A stretch of 64,000 nt of DNA, from NCBI GenBank assembly GCA_021739765.1, contig JAIPBD010000013.1, positions 1 through 64,000 of the forward strand, read 5' to 3'. A model generated the notes under the pieces. That model made no database searches, was not told where the DNA came from, and was given only the letters and a program-made list of their open reading frames with translations. A program made the translations under genes and the position numbers. The stretch is from Melioribacteraceae bacterium (GTDB taxonomy: Bacteria; Bacteroidota; Ignavibacteria; Ignavibacteriales; Melioribacteraceae). Positions 3,246 through 61,020 of the stretch are shown one piece after another; within the stretch, counting starts at the first letter, position 1, and each line of letters starts with the position of its first letter.

Positions 3246-5372
3246 ATGATACATTCACCGAATCAAGACAACATCTCCATCAAAACACTTGCAGAATTAA
3301 CTGCTGAAAGCTCTTATTCATTTCAAAAAGAATATGCAAAAATTCGGCAACGTGTTGCACGTGGTTACTATCCCACATATTTCAAAATTCAAGGTGAAGG
3401 ACATGTTTCGCTTTCAGATCCCAAACTGCCCGATTCACTTAAATTCAAACTCACAAACAAACAATGTACACAGTCCGCCGCGGCGGATCAATCTGCGGAA
3501 ATAGCACAAATTGAGTCCAAACCCATCAAAGAACTGATAGCAGACCCAATGTTTAAACTTGCTTACGAAAACGAACCGAAGTACAACAGAATTAAGGCAG
3601 ACAAATACATTTCAATTCTCACTCAATGCGAGAATTTGAAAGGTCAAAAACTGCACAGATTTGTTTTCGAGTGGAACACCAATAATCCGGAATTTACAAC
3701 CAGTTATAAATCCATTAAACGCATATTAAAACAAGTTCAAACTGAAGGAGCCGTTTCACTTCTTGCCGGCTACGGAAAGAACGCCGGTAAAACCACGGTT
3801 GATGATTTATGGTACGACTATTTCTATAAATTATTCATGGATCAAAACAAACGATCTTCCAAAAGCTGTTGGACTTCAACACTCGGTTACGCATTCCAAA
3901 TCAATTCAAAATTAAAATTTGATGAATTCCCGAGCGAATCTGCATTTATGCGAAGATTAAAATCAGAGAACCCGGATTCTGTAATTTGCCTGAAAAGAGA
4001 AGGTCCCGCAACTTATAATAAAAGATATGCGAACTATGTAGAACGAGATTACTCTAATCTGTATCCGGGGCAAGTCTGGGTCTCAGATCACCGTCAACTC
4101 GATGCTGCTACAATCGCTAAAGTTGAAGATAAAAACTTCCGGGAAGATTTGGATAATTGGTTTAGCAAATTCCCACATGCTTTCTATCAAGATAACCGGA
4201 GCAGAAAACCTATCTATCCGTGGATTACAGTCTGGAGGGATTTCCTAACCGGTCGATGGTTAGGATGGTCTTTACATCTTGAAGATCCCAATACAGATTT
4301 TGTGCTCGAAGCATTTTACAATGCTTTTCTTAATGTCGGCAGCCGGGTACCGGAAGCCGTAATCATTGATAATGGCAAAGATTACAGAGCAAAAGATTTT
4401 GCCGGAGGTCGGGTTAGAAGAGTAAAAGTGAAAGTCGACGAGATCAAAGTAAGGAGCTTGTGCGCTCAGCTGAATATCGAATCAATATTTACCTGGCCAT
4501 ACAATGCTCAAGCTAAACCGATCGAAAGAGATTTCCTCGATTTCAAAAACTGGGCGGATAAATCCTTTCCGGGTTATAGAGGCGGTAATGTGGTTGAACG
4601 TCCCGAAAAACTTATAAAGGAAATTAAATCGGGGAATATCATCGAGTTTGGTCAATATTCAAATTTGATCGATTTCTTTATTGAGGAAATTCTTAACAAA
4701 AAGATCAGCAACGGCAAAGTATTACAAATGCGAAGCCGCAACCAAGCATGGAATGAAGAGCTTGAATATATGGTGGAGAACGGAATTCAATCTAAAATGC
4801 GAAACGTTGATGTTGATGACATGAAGTTGTTTATGATGCGTACCAGCATCGATAAACCAATCGGACGCAACGGAGTCTGCCTATCTGAAAAGAACAGACT
4901 TTACTATTACGGCACCTGGATGGAAGGCAGAAAAGGTCGTTATGTTTATATGCGAAGATCTAACAAACGTTATCAAATTGCTTACGTTTTCGATAGCAAG
5001 GACGACGCCTATTTGGGCAAAGCCGTTCTAAATGCGTGGGTAGCTTCAGCTTATGCGCAGACTGACCTCGAGAAAAAAGACCTTTCACAAATTCTTCTGA
5101 TGAAAAAACAAGCTGATAATATTGCCAAAGCACTCGGAGATACAGATTTGCAAATTGATGTTTACGACATTCTTAAAAACATGTCACTTGGTGAAAAAAT
5201 CGCATCCGGGGGCGAAGACCACAAAATCAAGAATATTTCACCAAAAGCAGCGAAGGTGTTTGTTCTGTCAAAAGCATCGGAACACAAACGACAAATAGAG
5301 AGAGACGGAACTTATGATATTGATGCAGCACCTCTTTCTTCTAATGATGATGAAGTTCGAACTTGGATTTAA
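3246..5372 (+). CDS. Mu-type DDE transposase (MuA-like)
   Basis: Protein of 708 residues, slightly longer than phage Mu A (663). The N-terminal third (1-170) is the region expected to bind element ends. The integrase core carries the DDE triad: Asp281 in 'VWVSDH', Asp375 in 'VIIDNGKDY' and Glu427 in 'AKPIERDF', with 52 residues between the last two, close to the MuA spacing. The C-terminal beta-barrel and tail region follow. It should cut and join element ends during replicative transposition, with the MuB-like ATPase encoded downstream. It is intact, with no frameshift, so the element may still be mobile. Only a weak ribosome binding site is visible at the start, consistent with coupling to the preceding gene. 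Confidence 0.92.
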   Translation: MIHSPNQDNISIKTLAELTAESSYSFQKEYAKIRQRVARGYYPTYFKIQGEGHVSLSDPKLPDSLKFKLTNKQCTQSAAADQSAEIAQIESKPIKELIADPMFKLAYENEPKYNRIKADKYISILTQCENLKGQKLHRFVFEWNTNNPEFTTSYKSIKRILKQVQTEGAVSLLAGYGKNAGKTTVDDLWYDYFYKLFMDQNKRSSKSCWTSTLGYAFQINSKLKFDEFPSESAFMRRLKSENPDSVICLKREGPATYNKRYANYVERDYSNLYPGQVWVSDHRQLDAATIAKVEDKNFREDLDNWFSKFPHAFYQDNRSRKPIYPWITVWRDFLTGRWLGWSLHLEDPNTDFVLEAFYNAFLNVGSRVPEAVIIDNGKDYRAKDFAGGRVRRVKVKVDEIKVRSLCAQLNIESIFTWPYNAQAKPIERDFLDFKNWADKSFPGYRGGNVVERPEKLIKEIKSGNIIEFGQYSNLIDFFIEEILNKKISNGKVLQMRSRNQAWNEELEYMVENGIQSKMRNVDVDDMKLFMMRTSIDKPIGRNGVCLSEKNRLYYYGTWMEGRKGRYVYMRRSNKRYQIAYVFDSKDDAYLGKAVLNAWVASAYAQTDLEKKDLSQILLMKKQADNIAKALGDTDLQIDVYDILKNMSLGEKIASGGEDHKIKNISPKAAKVFVLSKASEHKRQIERDGTYDIDAAPLSSNDDEVRTWI

Positions 5373-5585: not shown

Positions 5586-6533
5586 ATGAGCGATTCTAAA
5601 AATAACGTCGAATTAAGACAAAAACAATTTATCGATAAGCTCGAAGACTACCAAAAAGAAACCGGCAAATCCTGGGCTGACATTGCTTCAGCTATCGGAC
5701 ACACGAGCTCATCAAAACTATCCCAATGGCGTTCATTCAGCTACCCTTCACCAACAGGGTCAGATAAAATAACAACGGAAGTTGAACGCTTTCTCAAGAT
5801 CGAAAACAAGAAACATCTTTCACCCAGAATTGATCTTGACTATGTAGAAATCGAGAACAATATACGTGTTTTTAAAACACTCGAAACCGCTCAAGCCGAT
5901 AAAATTATAGCTTGTATAACTGGAGATACCGGAACGAGCAAAACATCTTCGATTCAAAAATATATTGAAGAAAACGATGTAATTTATCTTCAATCAAACC
6001 GTTCTTACAAATTCCCCATCGAATACATGCGAGTGCTGCACAAACATCCTCGTGTTGGTAACAGCGGTGCTGGGACTTTAAATCAAATTGTTCAAGATAT
6101 TACTTCAGAACTAAAAGGTTCCAATACCCTCCTCATTGTAGATCAATGCGATTATTTAAACCTAACCGGAATCGATATTTTCCGGACTCTTAATGACGAA
6201 GCAAAAATCGGGATTTGCTTCGTAGGGTTGCCCAGTTTTTTATCAAAGATTCGTGGTACAGAACCGGAAGTCCGCCAGGTCAGAGATCGCATTAAACTCC
6301 GGATTGAGCTTAAGTCGTACTCTGAAGAGGACTGCCAGAAAATTCTTGATCACAACTGGCATGGTCTAAACGGCGAGGTTTCTACCTTTTTCAAATACTC
6401 ATTTGGTTCAATTCGTATCCTAAGTGGACTTGTATACAACACTCGCAGACTGATGAAAGTCCCGCAAAACGCAAATGTTGAAATCAAAAAACTAATTCCG
6501 GTTGCGGCATCAATGCTGGAAACGAGGTCATAA
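5586..6533 (+). CDS. MuB-like AAA+ transposition ATPase
   Basis: Protein of 315 residues, the size of phage Mu B (312). Residues 1-75 form a helical HTH-like domain, as in MuB. The AAA+ core follows, with a P-loop-like 'GDTGTSKTS' at 113-121 and Walker B-like 'LLIVDQCDYL' at 182-191. Both are unusual: Ser replaces the last Gly of GxxGxGKT, and Gln replaces the Glu after the Walker B Asp. 'CFVGLPSF' (211-218) is a likely sensor region. It should polymerise on target DNA, deliver target to the transposase and stimulate strand transfer. It starts after an AGGAG site. Confidence 0.88.
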   Translation: MSDSKNNVELRQKQFIDKLEDYQKETGKSWADIASAIGHTSSSKLSQWRSFSYPSPTGSDKITTEVERFLKIENKKHLSPRIDLDYVEIENNIRVFKTLETAQADKIIACITGDTGTSKTSSIQKYIEENDVIYLQSNRSYKFPIEYMRVLHKHPRVGNSGAGTLNQIVQDITSELKGSNTLLIVDQCDYLNLTGIDIFRTLNDEAKIGICFVGLPSFLSKIRGTEPEVRQVRDRIKLRIELKSYSEEDCQKILDHNWHGLNGEVSTFFKYSFGSIRILSGLVYNTRRLMKVPQNANVEIKKLIPVAASMLETRS

Positions 6534-7958: not shown

Positions 7959-8162
7959 ATGGGATCAATTTATGATGCGTCAGTCGTAGTTCTCGATCGC
8001 TTTCAAGAAGCTAATTTAACATCAAAGTCAGCGAGGGAAAGAATCGCTAAAGAGATTGCAGATCTCGCGGCAAAGCGATTGCAGAAGGGAATGGTCGAAG
8101 CACTTTTTAAAGCAAAAAACCGAAACAATAGCAGAAGGATTATAGGTGAATCAGTTGATTAA
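7959..8162 (+). CDS. Small basic helical protein, unknown
   Basis: Protein of 67 residues starting after an excellent AAAGGAGGT site and ending 17 bases inside the Gam-like gene. It is helical and basic at the C-terminus ('KAKNRNNSRR'). It is part of the coupled early operon. No family is recognised. Confidence 0.5.
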   Translation: MGSIYDASVVVLDRFQEANLTSKSARERIAKEIADLAAKRLQKGMVEALFKAKNRNNSRRIIGESVD

Positions 8163-8688
8163 AAGATCTAAACAAAACGAATACTCAACTTTTGAAGAAG
8201 TTGACCAAGCACTTAAAACTATTGCTGAAAATGATTCAACAATCGAAAAGCAAACAGCCATGATGAATAAAAAAATCATCGCAGCTAAAGAAACCCATGA
8301 GCCAAAAATTACAGAGTTGCAACAATCGAACAAAGTGCTTGAGAACCAAATACACAAATTTCTGAAGAAGAAAAAATCACTGTTTCAATCCGTCAGAAGC
8401 AAAACTCTGACATATGGAGTGGTTGGTTTTCGTAAAAGTCCCAAACATTTATCCAAAACGCCAAAAGTTACTTGGGATACAATTGCAGATAAATTCTTTG
8501 ATCTGTTTGGATCCAAGTATGTGGTACTGAAGAAGAAGCTCGATAAAGATTCTGTTATCAATGCGCTTAAGAAAAGCGAATTAACCATTGAGGAAATAGA
8601 GAGAACCGGAGCGAAAGTAGTCCAAATCGATCGTGAATACTACGAATTAACTACTTCCGAAGCCAATGCAACCGGAGAAGCTAAATGA
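8146..8688 (+). CDS. gam: Mu Gam-like host-nuclease inhibitor
   Basis: Protein of 180 residues from a GTG start with an AAGGA site. Residues 15-85 form a long coiled coil. A core with 'TLTYGVVGFRKSP' and 'KVTWDTIADKF' follows, the signature order of the Mu Gam family (PF07352), and then a K-rich segment and a beta tail. In phage Mu, Gam is a Ku-like end-binding protein that shields linear DNA from exonucleases. Its presence with MuA, MuB, GemA and Mor homologues anchors the Mu-like identification. It overlaps GemA by four bases. Confidence 0.88.
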   Translation: MNQLIKRSKQNEYSTFEEVDQALKTIAENDSTIEKQTAMMNKKIIAAKETHEPKITELQQSNKVLENQIHKFLKKKKSLFQSVRSKTLTYGVVGFRKSPKHLSKTPKVTWDTIADKFFDLFGSKYVVLKKKLDKDSVINALKKSELTIEEIERTGAKVVQIDREYYELTTSEANATGEAK

Positions 8689-9110
8689 GAATCCTTCCGG
8701 TTCAAATAAAAAAAATCAAAATCGCTCAGAAACAACTCGGTCTTACTGATAGCCAATATCGGGATGTTCTGAGTGGTTTTAATGACCAAAACGGAAAACC
8801 GTGTAAAAGCTGCACAACACTCAGCTCCACCGATGCAAATAACGTACTCGCACTTTTTGAAAAACTCGGATGGGAGCAGAAATACAAAAAGAAATTAAAA
8901 TATTCAGAGCTGGAAGGCAGAGGAGGCGATTTTGCCTCTCCCAAATCATTAAGAAAAATTGATGCAATGTGGCACACTTCCCCCAATGTTCGTTCTAAAA
9001 CCGATGCCGCAATGAATAAATTTATTAAACGCGAAACCGGTAAAGAAAACATCGAATGGATCTCACAGAGTGATGTTAAAAAAGTTGTGCAAGGCATTAA
9101 AAGATTATGA
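8685..9110 (+). CDS. gemA: GemA-like protein (Mu gp16, DUF1018)
   Basis: Protein of 141 residues. It opens with 'IKKIKIAQKQLGLTDSQYRDVL', the hallmark of DUF1018/GemA proteins, followed by a 'LSSTDANNVLALFEKLGW' segment and a second domain with 'SPKSLRKIDAMWH'. In phage Mu, GemA modulates host gene expression. It overlaps Gam (ATGA) upstream and the 48-residue membrane peptide downstream. The length agrees with the family. Confidence 0.87.
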   Translation: MRILPVQIKKIKIAQKQLGLTDSQYRDVLSGFNDQNGKPCKSCTTLSSTDANNVLALFEKLGWEQKYKKKLKYSELEGRGGDFASPKSLRKIDAMWHTSPNVRSKTDAAMNKFIKRETGKENIEWISQSDVKKVVQGIKRL

Positions 9111-9863: not shown

Positions 9864-10052
9864 CTATTTTAGTCTATGATGTTTTTTTGCTTTCTCAAAT
9901 CCAATCCAAATTCCATTACTATCAAGCCCTCTTCCTGCTAATTGTCGTTTCACCAAATCTCCCAAATCAATCTCTCTCTTTATGGCTTTTACAAGTAAAT
10001 CTGTGTGAGTCATATTAAAAATAAATTCTGGATTCTTTTCATCTTTGTACAT
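9864..10052 (-). CDS. Small conserved-looking protein, unknown
   Basis: Protein of 62 residues. The ATG at 10052 is preceded by AAAGG eight bases upstream and is preferred to a TTG nine codons earlier (10079). The end 'LAGRGLDSNGIWIGFEKAKK' recalls a family of very small Bacteroidota proteins with a 'RGLDxNGxWVGF' motif and no known function (from memory). It points left, against the early operon and divergent from the structured region, so it probably has its own promoter in 10053-10190. Confidence 0.5.
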   Translation of the reverse strand: MYKDEKNPEFIFNMTHTDLLVKAIKREIDLGDLVKRQLAGRGLDSNGIWIGFEKAKKHHRLK

Positions 10053-10190
10053 TTTATGACCTTTATTTTGTGGTTCCAAAACAGTATAAGGTCACGATTC
10101 AACACTCGCAAGTCTTTTAAATCCAAAAGTGTTTCTTAGTTTTTTAAGAACCTTTCTTCATATTTTCTTATTTTTTAAATGCCTCTAGTA

Positions 10191-10427
10191 GCTGAGGGAG
10201 GTCAAAAAATTCTCAGCGAGGGTTACTTTCAAACCCTGTGTCGATTTGAAAGAATCGGCTAAATGGCAACGAGTAAAGTGGCTTCTTTGTGAGCAGTTGT
10301 TGGAAAATAACTAAGCCGAGGGATACCCTCTTCGCTCGATGTCGAATTCAAGATTATAGTAGACGTCCTATAGTCTTGACGTTGTAGCAACGCAACGATA
10401 AAAAATGTCAGACTATTAAACAGTCTG
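10191..10427 (+). ncRNA. Candidate structured RNA (run of hairpins)
   Basis: Consecutive inverted repeats are seen by eye: GCTGAG/CTCAGC (10191-10196, 10212-10217); AGGGTT/AACCCT (10219-10224, 10232-10237); GTCGATT/AATCGGC (10240-10246, 10253-10259); TCGGCT/AGCCGA (10255-10260, 10314-10319, a long-range alternative); GAGGG/CCCTC (10318-10322, 10326-10330); a 12-bp stem 10348-10359 with 10368-10379 whose loop holds the self-complementary GACGTC; CGTTG/CAACG (10380-10384, 10388-10392); and CAGACT/AGTCTG (10409-10414, 10422-10427). Three stems contain pairs that are G.U on the plus strand but would be A.C on the minus, so the plus strand is favoured. The stretch is visibly richer in G and C than its surroundings. 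No known RNA family is recognised. It could be the 5' leader of the peptide at 10461. Confidence 0.55.
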
Positions 10428-10442
10428 GGCCGGCTCGGACTC

Positions 10443-10459
10443 AATATAGGAATTATATT
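10443..10459 (+). promoter_or_regulatory. Hairpin presenting the ribosome binding site of the 30-residue peptide
   Basis: AATATA (10443-10448) pairs with TATATT (10454-10459); the five-base loop GGAAT contains the only Shine-Dalgarno-like bases before the ATG at 10461. The placement, one base before the start codon, suggests translational control by structure. Confidence 0.5.
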
Positions 10460-10460
10460 G

Positions 10461-10553
10461 ATGAATAAGTTCGAGATAAAAGTAGAGATAATCGTAAATG
10501 TGTCTAAAATTATTTTAGCCATAGCTGTATTATTATTATTTCTGCTGCGGTAA
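10461..10553 (+). CDS. 30-residue hydrophobic membrane peptide
   Basis: ATG 10461 to TAA 10551. The first 16 residues are polar and charged (MNKFEIKVEI...), and residues 17-29 are a solid hydrophobic run ending LLLFLLR. It follows the structured stretch and the SD hairpin and is followed eight bases later by a strong intrinsic terminator, so leader, peptide and terminator look like one transcription unit. Hydrophobic peptides behind heavily structured leaders are typical of type I toxins, but no antisense RNA can be recognised here; a phage lysis or superinfection peptide is an alternative. A 99-residue frame on the other strand covers the same region and is judged spurious. Confidence 0.5.
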   Translation: MNKFEIKVEIIVNVSKIILAIAVLLLFLLR

Positions 10554-10560
10554 AACATGA

Positions 10561-10590
10561 AACGGGAAAGTTCAACTTTCCCGTTTTTTT
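10561..10590 (+). terminator. Intrinsic terminator
   Basis: AACGGGAAAGT (10561-10571) pairs perfectly with ACTTTCCCGTT (10575-10585) around a three-base loop, followed by a T run to 10590. It closes the RNA and peptide unit. Confidence 0.9.
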
Positions 10591-10653: not shown

Positions 10654-10812
10654 TGTCACACGATATACTCTGTAGATGTCACTTTTGAAATATTCACCAT
10701 CCATCCGTCAAAATCACCGTAAACTATTATTTTATAATCACTTAGTCGATTGTGACATTGGCACCAAAATGTCACACCTTTAAAGTGACATTTCTGGTAG
10801 TTTAAAGTGACA
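10654..10812. repeat. Cluster of TGTCAC/GTGACA motifs, candidate transposase end sites
   Basis: TGTCAC at 10654-10659, 10677-10682 and 10770-10775; GTGACA at 10752-10757, 10785-10790 and 10807-10812; a further TGTCAC at 11062-11067. TTTAAAGTGACATTT is repeated exactly at 10779-10793 and 10801-10815, a 22-bp period. AAATGTCAC (10767-10775) and GTGACATTT (10785-10793) form a perfect inverted repeat. MuA-type transposases bind arrays of about 22-bp sites near element ends, and the cluster lies between the last element gene and the host junction. Operator sites for a regulator are the alternative. Confidence 0.55.
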
Positions 10813-33205: not shown

Positions 33206-33232
33206 AATTTATGATACAGAAGAACATATGAT

Positions 33233-33612
33233 ATCAAGCTTGTAAGCCGAATCCTGTATCCCACTAGTGGGATGGCAATTATTTATCTGGTTCCGATATT
33301 GCTAACGGAATCAAGCGGTCTACCCGAAAGGATTTCAAAGGGAACGACTTCGATTCCAAATAATGGAAACCTTTCTACATGACCTTGCTCCAAGTGGGGT
33401 TTACCCTGACTCCGGAAAACCGAAGCTCTATAAATAGACCCGGATTATTGCTAACCCGGCGGTAGGCTCTTACCCTGCCTTTTCACCCTTATCCCGAAAA
33501 TTCGGGACGGTATTTTTTCTGTGGCACTTTCCGTAGTAAATTATTTGCATAATTAACCCCCGGCAGTTAACCGGCACTTTGTTCCGTGGAGTTCGGACTT
33601 TCCTCTACTCGA
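33233..33612 (-). ncRNA. rnpB: RNase P RNA, bacterial type A
   Basis: Read on the minus strand, the 5' part has GAGGAAAGTCCGAACTCC and an ACAAAGTGCCGG element, the CR-I region of bacterial RNase P RNA. The middle contains GGTAAGAGCCTACCG. The region before the 3' end has the conserved AGGATTCGGCTTACAAGC. All conserved blocks are in the right order over about 380 bases. It supplies the catalytic RNA that trims tRNA 5' ends. Ends are estimated to within about 5-10 bases. A 62-codon frame over its 5' flank (33605-33793) is not considered a gene. Confidence 0.95.
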
Positions 33613-33828
33613 TATAAATTATGAGCAGCAATTGCCCCGCCTGAGTATCCAATGTTTTCTGTATTTCCTTATTTATTAATCTATTTTCTAATAGGTAAAA
33701 TATACTAAAAATGGAATCCGTATTCATTAGTAAAAAGTCAGTATTCTTTTTAACGGAATGGTTCCTTTGGGAGAAAAGTTTGGGGAAGTCCAATTTTTAT
33801 GATTAGGGAAGAGTCGAATAAATAACCG

Positions 33829-60299: not shown

Positions 60300-61020
60300 T
60301 CATTCTGAGCATGCCGATAGGCATGATTCAGAATCTCAATCTTTTCATTTTTTCGATTCTACAAATAAGATCCCGAAACAAGTTCGGGATGACGTCAATG
60401 CGATTCCATGAAGAAGATCCCGGATCGCAGTCCAGGATGATGACTTCAATTTTCCCATGTCATTCTGAACATGCCGATAGGCATGATTCAGAATCTCAAT
60501 CTTTTCATTTTTTCGATTCTACAAATAAGATCCCGAAACAAGTTCGGGATGACGTCAATGCGATTCCATGAAGAAGATCCCAGATCGCAGTCCGGGATGA
60601 TGACTTCAATTTTCCCATGTCATTCTGAACATGCCGATAGGCATGATTCAGAATCTCAATCTCCTCATTTTTTCGATTCAACAAATAAGATTCCGAAACA
60701 AGTTCGGGATGACGTCAATGCGATTCCACGAAGAAGATCCCAGATCGCAGTCCGGGATGATGACTTCAATTTTCCCATGTCATTCTGAACATGCCGATAG
60801 GTATGATTCAGAATCTCAATCTTTTCATTTTTTCGATTCTACAAATAAGATCTCGAAACAAGTTCGGGATGACGTCAATGCGATTCCATGAAGAAGATCC
60901 CGGATCGCAGTCAGGGATGACGACTTCAATTTTCCCATGTCATTCTGAACATGCCGATAGGCATGATTCAGAATCTCAATCTCCTCATTTTTTTGATTCC
61001 GCCAATAATAACCCGAAAAG
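60300..61020. repeat. Tandem array of 160-bp repeats (four units plus partials)
   Basis: Units begin with CATTCTGA at 60301, 60461, 60621, 60781 and 60941, exactly 160 bases apart; the last is incomplete, and a degenerate partial unit precedes (from about 60209). Each unit has two hairpins: ATTCTGAA/TTCAGAAT with inner ATGCC/GGCAT, and CCCGAA/TTCGGG. Units differ by only a few bases. Open frames of 86-115 codons in every unit (MPIGMIQNLN...) are by-products of the repetition. Repeats of this word family are dispersed in this window (24058) and resemble intergenic repeats known in related bacteria. Confidence 0.95.

Follow-up and report, generated by a model that had tools for sequence, protein, structure and literature searches.

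A conserved structured RNA and hydrophobic micropeptide unit on bacterial mobile elements: a putative translational attenuator gated by RNA homodimerisation

In ermC-type translational attenuators, four arms have two alternative pairings, either 1:2 with 3:4 or 2:3 instead, and the 3:4 hairpin hides the initiation region. A different kind of structured RNA is carried by phages. GOLLD and ROOL, found in phages or prophages, have kissing loops that join separate molecules; one ROOL is 659 nt long and many GOLLD RNAs exceed 800 nt. For OLE and GOLLD, loops that switch from one palindrome to another have served as evidence that the molecules pair with each other (PMC12286853).

The locus described here lies in a 64,000-nucleotide stretch of contig JAIPBD010000013.1 from a Melioribacteraceae bacterium, referred to below as the window. 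It is best explained as a single short transcription unit composed of a structured RNA leader of ~270 nt, a hydrophobic micropeptide and a terminator. The combination of RNA and micropeptide is real, conserved and, as far as searched, undescribed, and represents a new family. Our overall reading, which we judge to have an even chance of being right, is a translational attenuator borne by mobile elements, gated by RNA homodimerisation and controlling a membrane micropeptide. The unit and the elements around it are as follows.

3246-5372, plus strand: MuA-like transposase, Mu-like early gene of the carrier (Pfam)
5586-6533, plus strand: AAA ATPase, Mu-like early gene (Pfam)
8146-8688, plus strand: Gam, Mu-like early gene (Pfam)
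8685-9110, plus strand: GemA, Mu-like early gene (Pfam)
10191-10217, plus strand: P0, 5' local hairpin (GCTGAG/CTCAGC), visible in the sequence and absent from the minimum free energy (MFE) fold
10220-10236, plus strand: P1 hairpin (GGGTT...AACCC), from the fold
10240-10266, plus strand: P2 hairpin (10240-10259) followed by an AAUGG motif
10265-10343, plus strand: P3, long stem with a variable tip (MFE)
10348-10379, plus strand: P5 hairpin of 12 bp; its apical palindrome GACGTC (10362-10367) is the proposed kissing-dimer loop
10380-10397, plus strand: P6 hairpin with the near-invariant loop UAGCAACG, then an A-rich linker
10409-10427, plus strand: hairpin A (arms 1:2), CAGACT/AGTCTG
10422-10441, plus strand: hairpin B (arms 2:3), with the self-complementary tetraloop CCGG; excludes A and C
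10434-10475, plus strand: hairpin C (arms 3:4), enclosing the ribosome-binding stretch and the start codon
10461-10553, plus strand: micropeptide ORF, 30 aa, hydrophobic, MNKFEIKVEIIVNVSKIILAIAVLLLFLLR
10558-10590, plus strand: terminator-like hairpin and T run (-16.9 kcal/mol)
10677-10812: TGTCACTTTAAA-type repeats at 10677 (plus, one mismatch), 10779 and 10801 (both minus, exact)

The original prediction, made from the letters of the window, had proposed a structured RNA, a start-codon hairpin, the peptide and the terminator. Its plus-strand RNA is favoured by folding: positions 10188-10440 have an MFE of -83.6 kcal/mol against -62.5 +/- 4.6 kcal/mol for shuffled controls (z -4.63), a value reached by 0 of 200 shuffles. 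The contrast between strands is not absolute, since the minus strand (z -2.45) was likewise matched by 0 of 200. Of the stems that had been drawn between 10191 and 10427, the outermost local one (10191-10217) is missing from the MFE structure. The 12-bp hairpin with a GACGTC loop was located at 10348-10379, and the hairpin proposed at the start codon is present as a local stem (10441-10461) within the larger hairpin C. The ORF at 10461-10553 yields the expected 30-residue hydrophobic peptide, and its stop codon is followed by the expected hairpin and T run. A consensus terminator scan called this element on the minus strand only, probably because on the plus strand the stem count consumes part of the T run.

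Homologues were gathered by blastn, covariance models and motif scans, and 25 further loci with the RNA core were found in Ignavibacteria, Lysobacteraceae, Methyloceanibacter-type genomes and IMG/VR contigs. Among 80 genomes of the host family, blastn gave two convincing relatives (L014 and L015), other short matches (E 0.001-0.009) being left out of the relative set. A covariance model of the core (R1) matched 3 of the 80 family genomes, 4 of 165 in the order and 5 of 392 in the class, the window's own genome included, and 2 of 32 genomes of a second family, both already known. Motif scans matched the Stygiobacter contig MHAZ01000004.1 (Ignavibacteria) and added the IMG/VR contigs L024 and L027, two copies from Methyloceanibacter (L038, L044) and a GC-rich set made up of L046-L053 and of L043 from Lysobacter (now Cognatilysobacter) xinjiangensis. 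A second model (R2) matched 4 of 297 Lysobacteraceae genomes, namely that of L043, L055, L056 and the false L057, which was dropped as non-homologous. Searching with a Methyloceanibacter copy gave matches in 7 of the 199 genomes of that order: the query's own genome, five with at least 300 matching bases (L081-L085) and one with a short match. These genome counts are limited by search thresholds and filters. The rare and patchy occurrence is as expected for mobile cargo.

Several candidates were rejected. Twelve of 14 viral contigs bearing a 16-nt motif had no match to model R1 at E 0.1, and L040, L041 and L045, among nine motif matches in genome contigs, and the 34-nt match L086 were dropped as non-homologous. 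A locus in the window's own genome (L002, 77% over 65 nt) is also not homologous and shares only the translation-start stretch before and into an epimerase gene. That match, L002 1501-1565 to window 10442-10510 at the start of a sugar epimerase, has E 5.9e-6 and may be chance in an AT-rich leader. Searches of phages and plasmids by blastn and tblastn gave only short chance-type matches in one search and otherwise none, and the peptide searches there may suffer from low-complexity filtering. No relatives were confirmed via the MuA-like protein.

In 18 of the 21 loci checked, which span different hosts and elements, the RNA core is accompanied by the peptide and by a hairpin downstream of the stop codon, as a compact unit should be. 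This co-occurrence, together with the start-codon hairpin (examined in 16 of the 18 peptide-bearing loci), also supports the original suggestion of a leader-controlled peptide. The hairpin lies at most 60 nt 3' of the stop codon in 18/18, with a T run that is strong only in some. Upstream, several homologues show by eye hairpins of differing sequence at the place of P1, and P3 varies in length. The AAUGG motif stands 89-190 nt 5' of P6 in 19 of 19 members examined, using a search pattern that was derived from these same sequences and permits variants (e.g. L015, L027, L055).

Covariation among homologues is present. One stem pair of P6 is T-A, G-C or C-G depending on the member, and a further signal comes from the apical loop of P5, which is palindromic in one register in 20 of 24 distinct rows through 10 different palindromes (GACGTC, AACGTT, GATATC, CTCGAG, GTCGAC, ATGCAT, TCTAGA, GTGCAC, GCATGC and TGGCCA). 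The rows (26 in all) were ungapped and anchored on P6, as MAFFT lost the P5 register between groups. None of 5000 column shuffles reached the observed value; such shuffles leave relatedness in, and grouping the 24 distinct rows by their flanks gives 15 clusters. At the three symmetric pairs, 91.7% of cells are Watson-Crick and all 12 possible pair types occur, whereas registers slid by 1-3 give 13.9-29.2%. The distinct rows not palindromic in register are L027 and L043, which carry TGATCA and TCGCGA one base away, and L044 (TGGCCG) and L085 (CGGCCA).

The position of the palindrome is also constrained. Its end lies exactly 13 nt 5' of P6 in 18 of 21 loci, and a palindrome 10-18 nt before P6 was found in 20/21 against 3.46 expected from shuffles, with other offsets giving 0-4 of 20-21. 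Other hairpin loops of at least 6 nt in the same RNAs were palindromic in 1 of 43. When the 48 nt before P6 were folded one sequence at a time, the last loop of the MFE structure contained the palindrome in no more than 8 of 21 cases, and for the GC-rich members the evidence for P5 is the consensus fold. A loop that changes sequence and stays palindromic is as expected of a homodimeric kissing loop, and this unusually clear covariation supports, at the level of sequence, homodimerisation via P5.

Downstream of P6 the predicted structure is a four-arm switch. The hairpin set comprises 16 peptide-bearing loci; L049 and L053 were omitted from it because they nearly duplicate L048 and L047. In 16/16 of these, arm 2 has two alternative partners, arm 1 (hairpin A) and arm 3 (hairpin B). 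The two hairpins are exclusive, and in each sequence 0-5 of 60 shuffles reached the weaker one. L056, L038 and L044, which lack the peptide, lie outside this set, and the A/B/C pattern was not seen in them. The tetraloop of B is self-complementary in all 16, as GCGC (8), CCGG (5), GATC, GGCC or GTAC. Unconstrained folding of the whole four-arm region gave A and C together in 15 of 16 loci, with L046 folding as B, and forcing B costs 0-7.3 kcal/mol across the set. Shorter folds lacking arm 1 and cut at codon 6 formed B in 14 of 18, as expected if arms 1 and 4 displace B. The computed B:B duplex is, per strand, within ~3 kcal/mol of A+C or better in 10 of the 16, and at least 4 kcal/mol weaker in the other 6.

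Hairpin C was chosen as the best hairpin that pairs the AUG, of which 1-3 bases are paired across members; in the window one of the three is paired, and arm 3 pairs with early peptide codons. When the AUG was not used for the choice, arm 3 folded with 4-10 pairs between arm and codons in 16/16, a pairing that is only moderately unusual per sequence (7-130 of 300 shuffles). The ends of C differ and still match: CTCG/CGAG in the window and L014, CTGG/CCAG in L046, L048 and L051, CTTGGG/CCCAAG in L050, and TGAG/TTCA in L027. Computation finds the arrangement that defines a translational attenuator, mutually exclusive hairpins of which one encloses the initiation region. The same four-arm geometry, and the T run that follows hairpin B within two bases in L015, L020, L024, L035 and L036, favour a metabolite riboswitch or attenuator serving an ordinary small membrane protein. 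We regard this as very unlikely, because a ligand would not require self-complementary loops, and because the occurrence is patchy (3/80 genomes of the window's family) and the context mobile.

The micropeptide is found at the same place in 18 of 21 loci, with 30 aa in 7, 28 aa in 10 and 27 aa in 1, and its start codon lies 61-73 nt 3' of P6 in the 16 folded loci. No peptide was found in L056, L038 and L044 among the 21 checked, a count that does not include L081-L085. Among the 30-aa members, coding is clear from the substitutions at the three codon positions (0.40/0.25/0.63) and from a pN/pS of 0.42. The indication is weaker in the 28-aa group (0.48/0.28/0.40; pN/pS 0.90), where the case for coding depends chiefly on an unchanging length and stop position and on conservation at second positions. 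All 18 peptides qualify as small hydrophobic peptides, the 15 residues before the last one having mean Kyte-Doolittle values of 0.89-3.12. The second half is hydrophobic, and in 18/18 the N-terminal part shows an alternation of polar with apolar residues, with a moment of 1.9-3.45 at 170 degrees versus 0.11-0.93 at 100 degrees; in the weakest case (L050), 5% of shuffles were as high. The alternation had suggested a peptide that begins with a beta strand; AlphaFold2 instead predicts one helix (residues 3-29, pLDDT 87.7, pTM 0.38). Eight of the 18 peptides searched against Pfam, NCBIfam and PHROGs gave three weak matches, the best with E 0.09.

The original prediction had compared the unit with type I toxins. 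As a resemblance of layout this stands, and it goes no further. In a type I toxin-antitoxin system the peptide would be the toxin, its translation delayed by the leader, and an unseen antisense RNA would neutralise it. The size, the hydrophobicity and the structured leader are like those of tisB-type loci (PMC4147584), mobile elements carry the unit, and a SocA/Panacea antitoxin domain is encoded near L014. Sense-antisense pairing, however, has no need of palindromic loops, and a consensus promoter scan of the window identified no antisense gene. We consider the type I explanation improbable.

In the window the unit lies downstream of the Mu-like early genes, and no late phage genes were seen by eye before ABC-transporter-type genes from ~11.0 kb. 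The TGTCACTTTAAA-type repeats may mark where the Mu-like element ends on the right, as possible sites for its transposase, which would put the unit just inside that end. The left end was not found, and the genome has no other exact copy of AATGTCACTTTAAA. A 62-aa ORF (MYKDEKNPEF...) without a Pfam match, at 9864-10052 on the minus strand, diverges from the RNA unit with a common upstream region, and could encode a regulator or partner. Elsewhere in the window, TGTCATTCTGAA recurs every 160 bases in four copies at 60458-60949, which suggests a tandem repeat.

The unit has several kinds of carrier, of which the Mu-like element is one, so the original claim of novelty in Mu-like elements was too narrow: copies also occur in tailed-phage contigs, beside tRNA genes and near DNA-methylase-type genes. 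In the phage contigs L047/L066, L052/L072, L053/L073, L069 and L071 the unit is antisense to neighbouring phage genes and adjoins lysis-type genes (ORFs by eye), while in L068 it lies between regulator-type and tail-type genes and in L070 it follows a D12 methylase and a tail-type gene. L075 and L076 are ~200 nt or less from tRNA-Thr and tRNA-Val genes, and L075 neighbours a C5 methylase. Neighbours of L067 include an SDH protease, a DUF4145 protein that matches PADLOC PD-T7-4, and an N6/N4 methylase carrying an Mrr domain; the protein with the SocA/Panacea domain lies near L014. The neighbour scan covered only 19 chosen proteins, several of which had no match, so the defence context is at most suggestive. 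Membrane-type proteins adjoin the unit at L020 (2380-3156, minus strand; a sub-threshold LapA_dom match only) and L074 (9194-9934; no PADLOC or Pfam match), and by eye resemble putative abortive-infection proteins.

Palindromes at conserved positions, near element or integration ends (the window; L075 and L076 beside tRNA genes), might instead mean that the repeats act as DNA, as a protein-binding palindrome or recombination site, the RNA fold being incidental. We give this almost no credence: the plus strand folds better than the minus (z -4.63 vs -2.45), the stems contain G.U pairs, the palindrome is off-centre from the stem in 7-nt loops, and the peptide is coding.

The three peptide-less loci indicate that the RNA may have a function of its own. 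L056 (G666:C14, near 181.7 kb) lies beside a tRNA-Val gene, with an IS3-type ORF (by eye) in the peptide's place. L038 and L044 have a differing 3' half in addition to lacking the peptide, and in the Methyloceanibacter-type RNA (L038, L044, L081-L085) the loop core GGCC is nearly fixed; this relative is possibly a domesticated stand-alone RNA. The RNA might then be the effector, an ornate homo-oligomer like GOLLD, ROOL and OLE, and the micropeptide its membrane anchor or partner and not a regulated product. Two self-complementary loops, a near-invariant P6 loop and linker, and the peptide-less L038 and L044, further copies of which occur in 5 more of the 199 genomes searched, all fit such a role, as does the example of GOLLD and ROOL, which join phage or prophage carriage with kissing between molecules (PMC12286853). 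The RNA is, however, shorter than GOLLD (many >800 nt) and ROOL (659 nt for one of them; PMC12286853), has no Rfam match, and is predicted to hold the start codon in a hairpin continuous with itself, which points to translation regulation. We find an effector RNA rather unlikely.

No known family was recognised at the unit. Rfam (4227 models, gathering thresholds) had one match in the window, RNase P at 33227-33648, and none at the unit; 15 homologous loci gave no match, with the GOLLD, ROOL and OLE models included, and permissive scans gave weak matches at best (E 0.18). ARAGORN found no tmRNA or tRNA in the window and three tRNAs in 20 loci, none at the RNA, and a tmRNA-like origin was rejected. 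None of the literature titles searched describes the unit, most subscription papers falling outside this scope. The suggestion that it may be undescribed thus holds within Rfam, the protein families and the literature searched, once freed of its Mu-like framing.

Under the preferred reading of a homodimer-gated attenuator, the monomer would form hairpins A and C together, and C, enclosing the ribosome site and start codon, would keep translation OFF. Two copies of the RNA would meet through the palindromic P5 loop, and hairpin B, through its self-complementary tetraloop, would then open into an intermolecular duplex; C would thereby lose arm 3 and the start codon would become accessible (ON). 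The peptide would insert into the membrane. The trigger would be transcript abundance or some partner of the conserved P6 loop, and the likeliest purpose would be conflict between host and phage or between elements, in the form of superinfection exclusion, abortive infection or addiction. The RNA family, the coding peptide, the covariation of the palindromic loop and the exclusivity of A, B and C are supported by sequence comparison and modelling, while dimer formation in cells, the dimer as the ON state, membrane action, peptide toxicity and the biological role are what we infer from them.

If this is right, the unit adds two new families, one of RNA and one of micropeptide, and a regulatory principle by which bacteria gate translation through homodimerisation of an mRNA. 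We tentatively extend it to a proposal that is possible and, in our estimate, still some way short of probable: a class of bacterial mRNA that senses its own abundance, in which transcripts kiss via a fast-changing palindrome, refold to an extended duplex and so switch on a membrane micropeptide, the palindrome serving as an identity tag so that only copies from the same element pair. If true, this would be a monomer-dimer translational switch like that of retroviral leaders, used by mobile elements. It would also give a small and tractable system in which to ask what the multimeric RNAs of phages do.

Among described systems, the type I loci tisB/istR-1 and hok/sok share with the unit a small hydrophobic peptide and a structured leader limiting translation (PMC4147584), and differ in that the unit has a homodimer-type loop, a start codon in a four-arm switch and no known antisense RNA. 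With ermC-type attenuators it shares the 1:2 plus 3:4 versus 2:3 logic; its 2:3 hairpin, however, has a self-complementary loop, and no leader peptide with a stalling ribosome was identified. Mobile carriage (GOLLD, ROOL) and the proposed intermolecular kissing loops, for which covariation speaks here, recall GOLLD, ROOL and OLE (PMC12286853), whereas the unit is ~270 nt long, has no Rfam match and is followed by a peptide in 18/21 loci. The leader with the HIV-1 dimerisation initiation site is alike in its palindromic apical loop, in possible conversion to an extended duplex and in coupling to the start-codon region (PMC7357161). No common origin is implied, and in contrast to that leader the present RNA is the message of a bacterial mobile element, encodes a micropeptide and carries a palindrome that varies widely.
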